Shown: positions 1-4,246 of the stretch, piece after piece
Position numbering within the stretch: the first letter of the stretch is position 1
Layout of the letters: every line of letters starts with the position of its first letter
Assembly: GCA_019359095.1 (NCBI GenBank)
Contig: JAHHHZ010000019.1
Span: 124,001-188,000 of the forward strand
DNA: 64,000 nt
Source: Pleurocapsa minor HA4230-MV1
Lineage (GTDB): Bacteria > Cyanobacteriota > Cyanobacteriia > Cyanobacteriales > Xenococcaceae
Direction: 5' to 3'
The notes under the pieces: generated by a model
What the model was told of the DNA's origin: nothing
Database searches by the model: none
Seen by the model: only the letters and a program-made list of their open reading frames with translations
Position numbers and translations under genes: made by a program

Positions 1-1
1 T

Positions 2-214
2 CCAATTGAAGTATTTCGGGCAAAAGGAATTATTTGGTTTGCAGGAAGCGAATTACGTCACATCTTCCAACTATGCGGACAACGTAGCGATCTCAAATCT
101 GACCGTTGGTCTACTCCTCCTGCTAACCAGCTTGTCTTTATCGGTCGTCATTTAGATACCGATAAACTACGCCAACAGCTAAATGACTGTTTGCTTACTT
201 CCGTTACCGCTTAA
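2..214 (+). CDS. CobW/COG0523 G3E-family metal GTPase, C-terminal end (partial)
   Basis: Open from the window edge to a TAA at 212-214; 70 codons are visible. The peptide starts PIEVFRAKGIIWFAG and continues to a conserved Arg/Trp segment (SDRW), which matches the CobW_C domain that follows the GTPase domain in G3E metal chaperones. The GTPase domain lies outside the window. folE starts 24 bp downstream on the same strand, so the two are probably co-transcribed. COG0523 proteins beside folE are a known zinc-homeostasis association, because FolE is a zinc enzyme; that link is inferred here. The family call is fairly secure, the metal is not. Confidence 0.75.
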   Translation, partial: PIEVFRAKGIIWFAGSELRHIFQLCGQRSDLKSDRWSTPPANQLVFIGRHLDTDKLRQQLNDCLLTSVTA

Positions 215-238: not shown

Positions 239-895
239 ATGACCTTAGCTAAGTTTGAACCCAATCAAATCGACAACATTAATCATCAATTACCCAAGCT
301 GAATACTACACAACAGCCCCCCGTATCTGAAGAGGAGATGCGTCAAGCAGTAAGGACTTTACTGTTAGGATTGGGAGAAGATCCAGACCGCGAAGGATTA
401 AAAGATACACCGAAAAGAGTAGTTAAAGCCTTAAAGTTTCTCACTTCTGGTTATCATCAATCCTTAGAGGAACTGCTTAACGGAGCCGTATTTCACGAGA
501 ATGCCGATGAAATGGTGTTAGTTAGAGATATTGACCTGTTTAGCTCCTGCGAACATCATATCTTGCCCATTCTTGGTCGCGCTCATGTGGCTTATATACC
601 CAATGGTAAAGTAATTGGACTATCAAAGATTGCCCGTATTTGTGAGATGTATGGACGGCGCTTGCAAGTACAGGAAAGATTAACCGCTCAAATTGCTGAT
701 GCCTTGCAAGGACTTTTACAACCAAAAGGTGTGGCAGTAGTAATCGAAGCAACTCATATGTGTATGGTAATGCGGGGAGTGCAAAAACCTGGTTCTTGGA
801 CTTCTACCAGTGCCGTACGGGGTGTCTTTGCCGATGACGCGAAAACTCGTCAGGAGTTTATGAGTTTAATTCGTCATAATCCTGCATTTCATTAA
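239..895 (+). CDS. folE: GTP cyclohydrolase I (FolE type)
   Basis: Converts GTP to dihydroneopterin triphosphate, the first step of folate and pterin synthesis, in the cytosol. The 218-aa length is normal for the family. The N-terminal ~35 residues are variable; the domain then begins with a [16 protein letters not shown] block. Catalytic and zinc-binding residues are visible: the CEHH motif (Cys and His ligands) near residue 103, the IGLSKIARI block, RLQVQERLT, the second Cys ligand in THMCMVMRG, and the TSTSAVRG ending. The start ATG at 239 fits the spacing from the upstream CobW gene. A hairpin at 917-938 follows the stop codon. Confidence 0.96.
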
Positions 896-980: not shown

Positions 981-1745
981 ATGATTATTGCCGTAGCCAG
1001 TCCCCCAGGTGCGGGTAAAACCCACTGGATTTGTCAACAGATAGCCCAAACCAATAAACCTGTAGGTTATTTCAGTCCGCAAACTGATTCCCTACCCATT
1101 GACACGATTTATCTGCAAAGTGAATATCCTCAACTGAAGATTTATCAAACTGGAGAGGAAGCAGCGTTATTGACAGAAGCAGATCAAAGCTTAATTTTTC
1201 TAGAAATTCCTTGGTATTTGGATTTGTCAGGAATCGAACCCTTACTCAAAACTCTTAACTCTCATCGAGTAGCGATAATTTCTCCCGATGCCAACAACAC
1301 AGAATTGACTACTTGGGCGGATGAGATTGTTTCAGGCAATCAAATTACTAAGCTGACAACATCTTGGCAGATTCATCGGGGAGTCTTAACAGGAGAAATC
1401 TTAGATTTTGATAGTCTAGCAACCTTTTGGCTGGAACTTACCCAAGGTGCTTATGGTGAAGTGCTTCGGGTAAAAGGAATGTTTGACTTAGAAGATGGAC
1501 AAATTTATCACGGCGATTTTATGCCTAATCAACCTGAATTGGAATTTCAACCCTTAAATTTACCCCGTTGGCTTGATGGTAGACCAGTTCGTAAGAGTGG
1601 TTTTGAAATTGTGGGTAACAAGCTAGATCGAGCTGAAATTGCTCAAACTATTAAAGACTGCTGTATTCCCGAATCGGCAATTAGTTATTACCAACAACAG
1701 GTAAAAGAGTCTTTAGCAACTGAACCAGAGGTAGAATTAGTATGA
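981..1745 (+). CDS. Short CobW-like P-loop NTPase
   Basis: The 254-aa protein opens with a Walker A loop, SPPGAGKT, at residues 7-14. After a reduced nucleotide-binding half it has a CobW_C-like block (VLRVKGMFDL near residue 160, WLDGRPVRKSGFEIVGNKLD near 195-215). It is shorter than a standard G3E protein (about 320 aa or more), and I cannot find the CXCC metal motif usual in COG0523. It is therefore a divergent or specialised member. Its TGA overlaps the ATG of the next gene (ATGA), implying translational coupling to the metallophosphoesterase. It could be a GTPase partner delivering metal to that enzyme (inference). No exact function is assignable. Confidence 0.6.
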   Translation: MIIAVASPPGAGKTHWICQQIAQTNKPVGYFSPQTDSLPIDTIYLQSEYPQLKIYQTGEEAALLTEADQSLIFLEIPWYLDLSGIEPLLKTLNSHRVAIISPDANNTELTTWADEIVSGNQITKLTTSWQIHRGVLTGEILDFDSLATFWLELTQGAYGEVLRVKGMFDLEDGQIYHGDFMPNQPELEFQPLNLPRWLDGRPVRKSGFEIVGNKLDRAEIAQTIKDCCIPESAISYYQQQVKESLATEPEVELV

Positions 1746-2557
1746 AAATAGCAGTAATGTCTTGTATTCATGGAAATTATTCTGCTTTAGAGGCAGTACT
1801 GGTTGATATTGACCAGCAAAAAGCTGAAAAGATTTATTGTCTCGGCGATTTAGTCGGTTATGGCCCTTATCCTAATGCGGTAGTGGAACAAATTAGGTCT
1901 TTAGATATTCCCACCGTACAGGGTTGTTGGGATGAAGATATTGTCGAAGGATTAAACGCCTGTGACTGTAGTTATCCTTCTCTGTTGGCAGAAAAACGAG
2001 GTAAGCTTGCCCACCAATGGACTAATAAGGAAGTACATCCTGAAGTTAGAGAATATCTAGCACAATTACCCCATACCTATAAAGAAGATAATCTTTGTTT
2101 CGTACATGGTAGTCCCAGTAGTAACCATGAATATCTATTACCCGAAATGGATGCTTTTATCGCTTTAGAAAGAGTCCTGTCAAGTGATGCAGATATATTA
2201 TTTTGTGGACATACTCATGTTCCCTATGTTCGCACCCTAGATTCTGGACAATTACATATTTTAGTTAATCAACCTAATCAGGAGGAACAACCTACTGTTA
2301 GTTTTAATACTACCCTGAAACGAATTATCAATGTCGGTTCGGTAGGTGAACCTCGTCACGGTCGTCCCAATGCCACTTATGTAATTTATGACACGGAGAC
2401 AGAAGTAGTAAACTTACGAGAAGTGGAGTATGACTATCAAAAAACCTGTGCTGCGATTTTAGATGCTGGGTTACCGCCGATTTTTGCTTGGCGTTTGGCC
2501 AGAGGTTTAGAATTTGCGGAAAAAGCTGACGATCCTACTCATGTTTGCGAGAGGTAA
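1742..2557 (+). CDS. Metallophosphoesterase-fold protein with two Cys-substituted metal ligands
   Basis: A 271-aa calcineurin-like phosphoesterase of the YfcE/DUF2851-type class by motif order: MSCIHGN (residues 6-12), GDLVGYGP (35-42), GCWDED (61-66), VHGSP (121-125) and CGHTHVP (155-161). In the family the first motif is normally DxH and the third GN[HC]D. Here Cys8 replaces the Asp and Cys62 replaces the Asn, while His10, Asp36, His122, His157 and His159 remain. Two of the seven usual ligands are thus cysteines, suggesting altered metal preference. It is translationally coupled (4-bp overlap) to the CobW-like gene upstream. The substrate is unknown; the fold is secure, activity is not. Confidence 0.8.
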   Translation: MKIAVMSCIHGNYSALEAVLVDIDQQKAEKIYCLGDLVGYGPYPNAVVEQIRSLDIPTVQGCWDEDIVEGLNACDCSYPSLLAEKRGKLAHQWTNKEVHPEVREYLAQLPHTYKEDNLCFVHGSPSSNHEYLLPEMDAFIALERVLSSDADILFCGHTHVPYVRTLDSGQLHILVNQPNQEEQPTVSFNTTLKRIINVGSVGEPRHGRPNATYVIYDTETEVVNLREVEYDYQKTCAAILDAGLPPIFAWRLARGLEFAEKADDPTHVCER

Positions 2558-2577: not shown

Positions 2578-3114
2578 TTAATTATTGCTCGTTAGCAACC
2601 CATAAACAACATGATCTAGGTACTTATCATAAACTTTTTCAGCATGACGAATAATACCCTCATTCTGAAAACTCAAGCGTTCGGGAATAGCCCGACTACG
2701 ACTATTTTCTACCGCACATCTAATATCAATGCGATTAACAGAATAGTAACTATGACCAATTTCCATTAACTCTTTCACGCTTTTGGTCATAATTCCTTTT
2801 CCGTTGTATTTTTGTCCTAACCAGTAACCTACATAGCCAATTTTGTTATCATGGTCAATTTCGTTAAATCCTACTACCCCTGCAATTTTATCTCGATAAA
2901 AAATAGTAATATGTAATGCTTTTCCTTGTTGAAATTTAAGTAACTGTAATTCTATAAACTCTCTGGTATCTGACGCTGTCTGAACATTATTTAACCAAGG
3001 CAGCCATTGCTTAAGAAAATCTCTATTTTTATCTGTTAATTCAAACAAATCCTCGGCATATTGTGAAATAGATAAACTTAACTTAATATCGCGCTCGATT
3101 TCTCGGAAAAACAT
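2578..3114 (-). CDS. GNAT acetyltransferase, RimL/YdaF type
   Basis: A 178-aa N-acetyltransferase resembling ribosomal-protein-serine acetyltransferases and YdaF. Landmarks are DTREFIE near residue 49, the central strand YVGYWLGQKYNGKGIMT (acetyl-CoA binding Q/R-x-x-G-x-G/A-like loop, here QKYNGKG), and the RIDIRCAVENSRSRAIPERL block typical of RimJ/RimL proteins. It transfers acetyl from acetyl-CoA to an amino group, of a protein N-terminus or a small molecule. It is convergent with the upstream metallophosphoesterase gene, leaving 20 bp between stop codons, so it is not part of that operon. Confidence 0.85.
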   Translation of the reverse strand: MFFREIERDIKLSLSISQYAEDLFELTDKNRDFLKQWLPWLNNVQTASDTREFIELQLLKFQQGKALHITIFYRDKIAGVVGFNEIDHDNKIGYVGYWLGQKYNGKGIMTKSVKELMEIGHSYYSVNRIDIRCAVENSRSRAIPERLSFQNEGIIRHAEKVYDKYLDHVVYGLLTSNN

Positions 3115-3490
3115 ATTTATAATTAAAAATTGCCTTAATTATATTTGAATTTTAGAACCTAAACATTTAATTTACGGTCAAAAGAAAGTTTTGTGTAGCG
3201 ATCGCAAATATCTAAAAACTACTAAATCTAAAAAAGCGATCGCCTTTTTGAAAAAAATCTAACTTAAAGAGCGATCGCTAAAATTAGGCTTGCCAGAGCA
3301 GTTCCCCAATTGTTTCCCAATGTTTTGACATTTTGAACAGAAATAATCTCAACACTGGCAGCAGAATGCCTATTCTCGGAGTCAGCATTAACTTGCGAGG
3401 CTGAAATAGTCAGAGATCATCACACTTGAGTCAACATAAGTAAAATCAGAAAAAATTAAGCAAATATTAAATTTCTACGTATCGTACCAT
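3115..3490. other. Intergenic region with three HIP1 octamers
   Basis: About 375 bp without a convincing ORF. It holds three AGCGATCGC/GCGATCGCC octamers between about 3198 and 3280. The shared promoter region of the RimL-type gene (leftward) and the divergent MPE-like gene (rightward) must lie here. Only the Fur/Zur-like box that follows is recognisable. Confidence 0.6.
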
Positions 3491-3509
3491 AATAATGATT
3501 ATCATTTTT
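3491..3509 (+). promoter_or_regulatory. Fur/Zur-type operator
   Basis: AATAATGAT-T-ATCATTTTT is centred on a perfect 6-1-6 palindrome (AATGAT T ATCATT). Against the classic 19-bp Fur box GATAATGATAATCATTATC I count about 15 matching positions. It ends 26 bp before the ATG of the MPE-like gene, which is operator position for a metalloregulator. Fur and Zur boxes in cyanobacteria look similar; Zur is favoured only because of the CobW/folE neighbourhood. Confidence 0.55.
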
Positions 3510-3535: not shown

Positions 3536-4246
3536 ATGTGGGCAATATTAAGCGGAATTGAAGGTAATCTAGCAGCTTACGAAGCAGTATTAAGCGATAT
3601 CAAACGGCAAAGAGTTAATGTAAATTTAGAAGAGTTGTACATCTTGGGTGACTTGGTGGCAGCGAACCCAGAAAGCGAAAAAGTGATTAAACGGATCCAA
3701 AATCCTAGATTGGGAGAATTACAACCCCAAGTCTGTGTTGGTTGGTGGGAAGAACAATGTTTTGCTTTACATGGTTTAGGTTCGACAGCAGAACCAGCAG
3801 AATTAATCGATCGCTTTGGCAAAGAAACAGCTAAACTTCTCTGGGATTCAGTATCTCGCGAAACTGTACAGTGGTTAAGAAATTGCCACTTTGGTTTTTT
3901 TGAATTGGATTGTTTGTTAATTCATGGAAGTACTGTTAGCGCCAGTGATGAATTAACCCCTGAAACTCAACCCTGGGAAATATTAGACCGCTTGCAAAGA
4001 GTACAGGCTAATCATCTCTTTTGTGGTCGTTCGGGTCGAGTCTTTGAATATCAATTACAAGGGGGTTCTGTTAATAGTTCGGTAATGACTTTAGATCATC
4101 AGCAACCCGTTCAAACTATTACTGCACCTCAAAGAACAGTTGTCGGCGTGGGAAATGTGGGGAGAGAACCAGGAAAGGCTACTTATACTCTTTATAGTCC
4201 AGAGAGCGATCGCTTGGAGTTTAAAACAATTTATTATGGCAATTAG
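3536..4246 (+). CDS. Ligand-less metallophosphoesterase-fold protein (probable pseudoenzyme)
   Basis: The 236-aa protein follows the same motif order as the MPE at 1742, but the motifs are eroded. DxH is Gly7-x-Glu9 (SGIEGN), GDLV is kept (residues 38-41), GNHD is GWWE (69-72), HGS is kept (His130), and GHTH is GRSG (164-167). Only Asp39 and His130 of the seven usual ligands survive, so two-metal catalysis is very unlikely. The reading frame is intact and the C-terminal half (VVGVGNVGREPGKATY) keeps the family's conserved strand, so it appears to be under selection. A structural or regulatory role, perhaps as partner of the first MPE, is inference. It has its own Fur/Zur-like box 26 bp upstream. 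Confidence 0.7.
   Translation: MWAILSGIEGNLAAYEAVLSDIKRQRVNVNLEELYILGDLVAANPESEKVIKRIQNPRLGELQPQVCVGWWEEQCFALHGLGSTAEPAELIDRFGKETAKLLWDSVSRETVQWLRNCHFGFFELDCLLIHGSTVSASDELTPETQPWEILDRLQRVQANHLFCGRSGRVFEYQLQGGSVNSSVMTLDHQQPVQTITAPQRTVVGVGNVGREPGKATYTLYSPESDRLEFKTIYYGN

Follow-up and report, generated by a model that had tools for sequence, protein, structure and literature searches.

Cysteines at two predicted metal-ligand positions of a cyanobacterial metallophosphoesterase-family protein, and its putative link to zinc starvation

The canonical metal ligands of metallophosphoesterases (MPEs) are seven residues, D, H, D, N, H, H and H, and the question raised by the locus described here is what a member of this family could be doing with cysteine at two of them. 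The gene, which we call A, encodes a 271-aa MPE-family protein (PF12850/PF00149) at 1742..2557 (+) of the window, by which we mean the whole stretch of 64,000 nucleotides that was analysed (Pleurocapsa minor HA4230-MV1, contig JAHHHZ010000019.1, positions 124,001 to 188,000). It lies between the two other genes of a conserved set, N-A-B, so that the question extends from the residues of A to its two partners and to the conditions under which the three genes may be made.

Metal-ligand positions of A and their conservation

The translation of A (1742-2557) opens MKIAVMSCIHGN and later contains VQGCWDED. Aligned to PDB 3rqz (motifs SDVHAN and GNHDW) and to SapH, PDB 3qfm (SDIHGN and GNWEDS), it has Cys8 (codon TGT, 1763..1765, +) at the position of the first-block Asp and Cys62 (codon TGT, 1925..1927, +) at that of the Asn of GN[HC]D, relatives having Asp and Asn there. 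Judged by this alignment, both cysteines sit at metal-ligand positions, and the canonical set of seven is incomplete in A at these two (D8 to C, N62 to C), with the other five, H10, D36, H122, H157 and H159, kept. A sequence-only reading of the window had reported both replacements, the retention of all other usual ligands and a translational coupling to a CobW-like gene, all of which we confirm, the coupling being an ATGA overlap between the stop codon of N (1743-1745) and the start of A (1742). If the ligand residues are divided between two metals as we presume from the superfamily, each metal would have lost one oxygen or nitrogen ligand and gained one thiolate. Trp63 was considered as a third novelty of A and dropped, as SapH also has Trp there, where His or Cys is usual.

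Profile and fold both make A a member of the MPE family, with phosphoesterase activity as its predicted function. It scores 78.1 bits against a Pfam cutoff of 27 for PF12850 (Metallophos_2) and 42.9 against 21.5 for PF00149, and its AlphaFold2 model (pLDDT 79, pTM 0.80) has an MPE fold whose best Foldseek matches are MPEs (3rqz, 3qfm/3qfn), the model being weak where it matters (mean pLDDT 61 for residues 71-80, 55 for 121-130 and 58 for 261-270).

The conservation of the two cysteines was followed in two sets of loci. Among the 386 genomes of the phylum that were searched, 268 matched A at E<=1e-10, 92 of them better than 1e-60 as counted from the list; the weaker matches are distant relatives or B. 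The first set, L001-L072, was drawn from 70 of these 92 genomes and includes two further stretches of the window's own genome (L002, L003). Its alignment holds 73 rows of A, with the window counted twice ('win' and L001), and S-C8-x-H and G-C62-W-D are present in all 69 rows that cover the N-terminus, the other four being fragments gapped there. The second set comprises the 80 best of 405 relatives from a pattern-based scan, all of them named loci (L075-L154), whose organisms may overlap those of the first; the window and a fragment having C8 only are among its 82 rows. Here C62 is found in 81/81 rows, C8 in 76/82 and D8 in the remaining six (6/82). W63, C74, C76, C155, H267 and C269 are each present in 81/81 and C236 in 79/81; C33 varies in one row and C236 in two. 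The five other ligands are likewise invariant (81/81), as are the motifs HGS and GHTH; in the first set H122 is replaced once by Y and H157 once by N, in the broken or incomplete copies L068 and L059. The sequence-only reading had set the conservation of both cysteines as a test of its proposal and had left out C74, C76, C155, H267, C269 and C236; its proposal passes this test, with C62 in every covered row and C8 in all but one group, where Asp replaces it.

These six rows (L089-L094, from Crocosphaera, Cyanothece and strain SU2) are 86-89% identical to the window's A and have the codon GAT where C8 has TGT, and the four of them placed in our tree form one clade (support 100/99). Where C8 is lost, its replacement is the standard ligand, Asp, and this, with the single clade of the four rows placed, is what a position 8 that still binds metal would lead one to expect. 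A strict coupling of C8 to C62 is rejected, since all six rows combine D8 with C62. The 19 outgroup MPEs in the tree (12 from plasmids, one from a phage and six of 10 from another class of the phylum) all keep Asp and Asn and have Cys at neither position; the remaining four of those 10 likewise have Asp and Asn, by eye. A forms a single group with weak support (50/69) and B lies on a long branch, for which reasons we also rejected a simple recent duplication as the origin of A and B.

A is likely confined to cyanobacteria, sampling outside the phylum having covered plasmids, phages and the pattern-based scan (best 80 of 405). A single phage record matched A, at 30%; 155 plasmid records did, six of them at 71-76%, all from cyanobacteria, and the next full-length one among the matches listed at 37%. 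Spread by phages or by plasmids in general was therefore rejected, the non-cyanobacterial plasmid matches listed reaching at most 37%. Two oddities were met on the way. One is a contig assigned to Candidatus Gracilibacteria (L098) that has both A (81%) and N (59%), probably through the mis-binning of cyanobacterial sequence; the other is a genome (G064) with two full-length copies of A on contigs C1 and C2, the coordinates on C2 being those of the Dolichospermum DET69 plasmid match.

The partner genes N and B

N (981..1745, +; 254 aa) is a degenerate COG0523/CobW-like P-loop protein. When the features of COG0523 proteins (Walker A, CxCC, NKxD) were looked for, Walker A alone was regularly found, its Lys being present in 145/145 rows, CxCC in 0/148 and NKxD in 3/148. 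The CobW_C domain of Pfam scores 21.8 bits, just below its cutoff of 22, the cobW nucleotide domain gave no match, and a PDB profile search gave no sequence match at E<=0.01. The model of N (pLDDT 90) has as its best Foldseek PDB match YjiA, a COG0523 GTPase (E 8e-8, probability 1.00). N thus resembles COG0523 proteins in its CobW_C stretch and its best structural match, but differs from them in its motifs and in a TM-score of just 0.32, and we regard the predicted relation as thin. The Anabaena gene all1751, listed as COG0523 in the available text of PMC6103462, could be an N gene. Another Anabaena gene, all1750, was considered as a possible A and dropped, the accessible part of PMC4390845 giving it as 'No similarity'.

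B (3536..4246, +; 236 aa) is a homologue of A, to which it is 29% identical (E 6e-19), with D39 and H130 kept and the Asp8, His10, Asn62 and His157 positions lost. The same pattern runs through its family: among 132 rows the first Asp is Gly and the first GHTH His (His157) is Arg in all, Asn never occurs at the GN position (0/132; Trp in 129/132), the His10 position is lost in at least 128, and D39 and H130 are retained throughout (132/132). From these replacements B is predicted to be a conserved, catalytically dead relative of A, a pseudo-MPE. The stretch 3536-4246 was passed over in the sequence-only reading, as were the Zur-type boxes described below. A GNAT-like acetyltransferase gene, recognized by eye (2578-3114, -), separates A from B in the window.

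The three genes go together well beyond Pleurocapsa. In a class survey of 116 genomes, counted by hand at cutoffs of E<=1e-50 for A, 1e-20 for B and 1e-12 for N, A was found in 32 genomes, B in 33 and N in 35; every genome with A has N (32/32) and 30 of the 32 have B. B without A occurs in three genomes, with internal stops in two of these B copies, and N without A in three. N and A lie on one strand in 146 of the 151 loci that have A, overlapping by 4 bp in 94 of the 146, and A and B are at most 300 bp apart or overlap in 104 of the 135 loci where both are on one strand.

Zinc context of the gene set

A perfect match to TGATAATnATTATCA, which we take to be the consensus of a Zur-type box, lies at C19:123165-123179, 836 bp before the start of the window, directly 5' of a COG0523 (cobW) gene that starts outside the window and has its tail at 1..213 (+). 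A folE paralogue (GTP cyclohydrolase I; 239..895, +) follows upstream of N, giving the order COG0523-folE-N-A on one strand behind the perfect box. The 10.3-kb stretch that includes this box holds two Zur-type sites where 0.15 are expected, and as many were seen in 2 of 200 shuffles. Before N itself no box with up to three mismatches was found in the window. A Zur-box-like palindrome with one mismatch, TAATAATGATTATCA, lies at 3490..3504 (+), 31 bp before the start codon of B, and is weak alone: 0.48 such sites are expected in the window, and at least one appeared in 43 of 100 window shuffles. Also upstream of the window, a hemB paralogue has a one-mismatch Zur-type box before it and is followed by two more COG0523 genes. 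This region (L157, C19:114001-124300) is a zinc-starvation island, with a FAD oxidoreductase, hemB and three COG0523 genes in all; it also holds genes for a DUF1980 protein and an ArsP_1-type permease, on the strand opposite to the gene behind the perfect box.

Across both locus sets, the stretch from -120 to +10 of N contains a Zur-type box with at most two mismatches at 74 of 145 loci, whereas 69 of 2900 control windows drawn at random from the same loci do; the other 71 loci have no such box directly upstream. The same test applied to other gene starts gave 3/149 for A, 9/134 for B (control 56/2680) and 0/24 for folE. In the 4 kb that precede N, 56 of 98 loci have a box with at most one mismatch, compared with 8 of 88 control stretches taken downstream, and L001-L072 hold 78 sites of up to two mismatches against 11 in one simulated set. 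Family f25 (10 loci in small genomes of 1.6-2.9 Mb, taken for marine picocyanobacteria) passed the controlled box test at three loci and failed it at seven; the strict Zur pattern with at most two mismatches is present at one of the 10 (L067), while a looser pattern with at most two mismatches within 220 bp has a site at all 10, an uncontrolled count. The neighbours of N-A-B loci include znuA/znuC, hemB, thrS, hisI, folE and COG0523 genes, as on a Trichormus variabilis plasmid with genes for a TonB receptor, ZnuC, ZnuA, HemB, ThrS, COG0523 and HisI. Boxes and neighbours together argue that N-A-B is linked to zinc starvation, and cyanobacterial Zur regulons are described, in the part of PMC6103462 available, as containing paralogues of zinc enzymes. 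A is not a general requirement of zinc starvation, since 84 of the 116 genomes lack it.

Published expression data bear on N rather than on A. In Synechococcus PCC 7002, according to the accessible text of PMC4628125, a zur mutant and TPEN both raise hemB-II, folE-II, G0131 and G0132, and G0129 (annotated as a phosphoesterase) and G0130 are not raised in the zur mutant. PCC 7117 has N, A and B; in the PCC 7002 plasmid cluster N is cut down to its residues 1-147 and B to its last 130, A is missing between the two, and this plasmid is not one of the six plasmid records that carry A at 60-80% identity. The decayed cluster lies on pAQ7 at about 148.7-150.5 kb (L156), where a hypothetical ORF fills the gap. 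From gene order, similarity and the GTPase likeness of G0131 we infer that G0131 is a truncated N and that G0129 looks like a fragment of B. On this assignment the expression data would support an action of Zur on the promoter of N and carry nothing on A itself; the unraised G0129, a B-like gene in a cluster that has no A, says little about A.

Possible roles of A, and comparison with known systems

The sequence-only reading had suggested a metal-retuned phosphoesterase, possibly a metal-responsive sensor. Its metal link has become stronger with the Zur context and the COG0523-like partner, whereas its sensor role is not supported. The reading that we prefer, with middling confidence, is that A is a thiolate-liganded di-metal phosphoesterase made under zinc scarcity, a relative of SapH probably assisted by N and B. 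Its di-metal site would have one thiolate per metal (C8, C62), together with a Cys-rich C74-x-C76 loop (codons at 1961..1969, +) and an H267-x-C269 tail. As zinc falls, Zur would come off its box and the three proteins would be made together; N, a COG0523-type P-loop protein that has no CxCC, might insert the metals of A or otherwise assist its assembly. A could then retain its metals at a free zinc that empties an ordinary Asp/Asn site, or could take iron instead, and would hydrolyse a phosphoester or phosphoanhydride, most plausibly an Ap4A-type nucleotide. B, the dead relative, may be a structural or regulatory subunit.

That a degenerate, chaperone-like N nearly always accompanies A and a dead look-alike B is usually near it points to an undescribed three-part tool for scarce zinc. 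Carried further, and only tentatively, N-A-B may be an undescribed cyanobacterial zinc-starvation machine, comprising a thiolate-rich phosphoesterase (one Cys per metal, CxC loop, HxC tail), a COG0523-derived insertase that has no metal motif of its own and a pseudo-phosphatase subunit, and acting on a nucleotide signal or in metal transfer at free zinc too low for ordinary MPEs. The literature searched, in which subscription papers are thinly covered and an earlier mention is possible, gave no description of the Asn-to-Cys change, of A or of N-A-B as a unit. PMC4628125, in the text available, mentions G0129-G0131 in passing, and the word 'phosphoesterase' is absent from the main texts of PMC10957091, PMC2770081, PMC12058595 and PMC12282138.

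Three other explanations have to be weighed against a thiolate-liganded phosphoesterase. We think it rather unlikely that A is a non-catalytic metal store or sensor, whose Cys-lined pocket holds or senses zinc and exchanges it with N, with B as a metal-free partner. The conserved cysteines beyond the two ligands, the linkage to a COG0523-like gene and to zinc-starvation clusters, and the conserved pseudoenzyme B, which implies that catalysis was lost next door, would all suit such a role; however, A is unlike this dead member in keeping its remaining ligands, HGS and GHTH (the broken or incomplete L068 and L059 apart), and the Asp allowed at position 8 is enzyme-like.

It is also rather unlikely, in our estimate, that A is a zinc-sparing iron or mixed-metal phosphoesterase which replaces a zinc or manganese phosphoesterase and in which the thiolates serve iron as Cys-180 does in PhoD. 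Judged by the PhoD motif, A has no such Tyr ligand, and it keeps His10; moreover, its own genome yielded no ordinary parent enzyme, the matches at E<=0.01 being B and one distant MPE only. In PhoD itself the iron is also held by Tyr, and no counterpart of C62 was found there in the accessible text of PMC4223295. In favour of iron, the same text describes Cys for Asp at the Fe3+ site and Cys and Asp subfamilies much like C8 and D8 (PMC4223295), and cyanobacterial Zur regulons include zinc-enzyme paralogues (PMC6103462). Ordinary drift in an MPE that has no special metal chemistry, its cysteines being structural, is already disfavoured and very unlikely, for although Cys is frequent in A, with variation at C33 in one row and at C236 in two, no covered row of either set lacks C62, C8 is swapped only with Asp, and both are ligand positions.

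If both cysteines of A bind metal, as the preferred reading has it, this would be a natural di-metal phosphoesterase shifted from oxygen and nitrogen to sulphur ligands and tied to zinc starvation across many cyanobacteria, for which the natural D8 group provides a ready-made comparison with C8. The cyanobacterial Zur response would gain a function-shaped hole, and for the COG0523-like proteins there would be a candidate client whose fold is known.

Each known system resembles A in part. PhoD of Bacillus subtilis carries a Cys in place of Asp at the Fe3+ site (Cys-180) and belongs to a family split into Cys and Asp subfamilies, so that it shares with A a Cys-for-Asp change at the metal site of an MPE fold and its branches are a fair parallel to C8 and D8; it differs in belonging to another family, in binding Fe3+ and two Ca2+ with a Tyr ligand, in being extracytoplasmic and in having Asp as second-metal ligands (PMC4223295, in the portion available). 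The sequence-only reading knew of no described subfamily with the Cys pair; that stands for the Asn-to-Cys change, to which we found no parallel, but the Cys-for-Asp change has this precedent in PhoD (PMC4223295, same portion).

Plasmid-borne MPEs beside arsenic-resistance genes (Bacteroidota and Rubrobacter; L169 with two copies, L170, L171 and L174) are 32-37% identical to A and rank among its best non-cyanobacterial plasmid relatives among the matches listed. Three of these five have a CGCAY loop like C74-x-C76, and a metal(loid) context is common to them and to A, but all have Asp8 and Asn62, and their context is arsenic, not zinc. Of the 12 plasmid MPEs in the comparison, four have the CGCAY loop, every one of them from Bacteroidota: the three just mentioned and that of Hymenobacter (L173), whose short stretch shows no arsenic gene. 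The genes adjoining the MPEs of L169, L170, L171 and L174 include, in several cases, ArsR, ACR3, ArsC and arsenite methyltransferase genes, and Pedobacter has a tandem pair of such MPEs, only one of which contains a CxC loop.

Nearer in sequence and fold is 3rqz, the Sphaerobacter thermophilus MPE, which is the best PDB sequence match of A (residues 1-256, E 1e-36) and its best Foldseek match, but has SDVH and GNHD, has no C74/C76 and is aligned only to a point short of the H267-x-C269 tail. SapH (Spr1479; PDB 3qfm, 3qfn), by its PDB title a streptococcal asymmetric Ap4A hydrolase and phosphodiesterase, shares with A the MPE fold (Foldseek TM about 0.71, E 6e-16; profile E 4.5e-9), a first block SDIHGN and a Trp after the ligand Asn (GNWED, as in the GCWDED of A), whereas it keeps the Asp and Asn ligands, is 24-25% identical and shows no CxC loop in the alignment. 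By sequence and predicted fold, A is a distant relative of SapH, and since SapH, the nearest characterized relative found, hydrolyses Ap4A, a nucleotide is the first candidate for the substrate of A.
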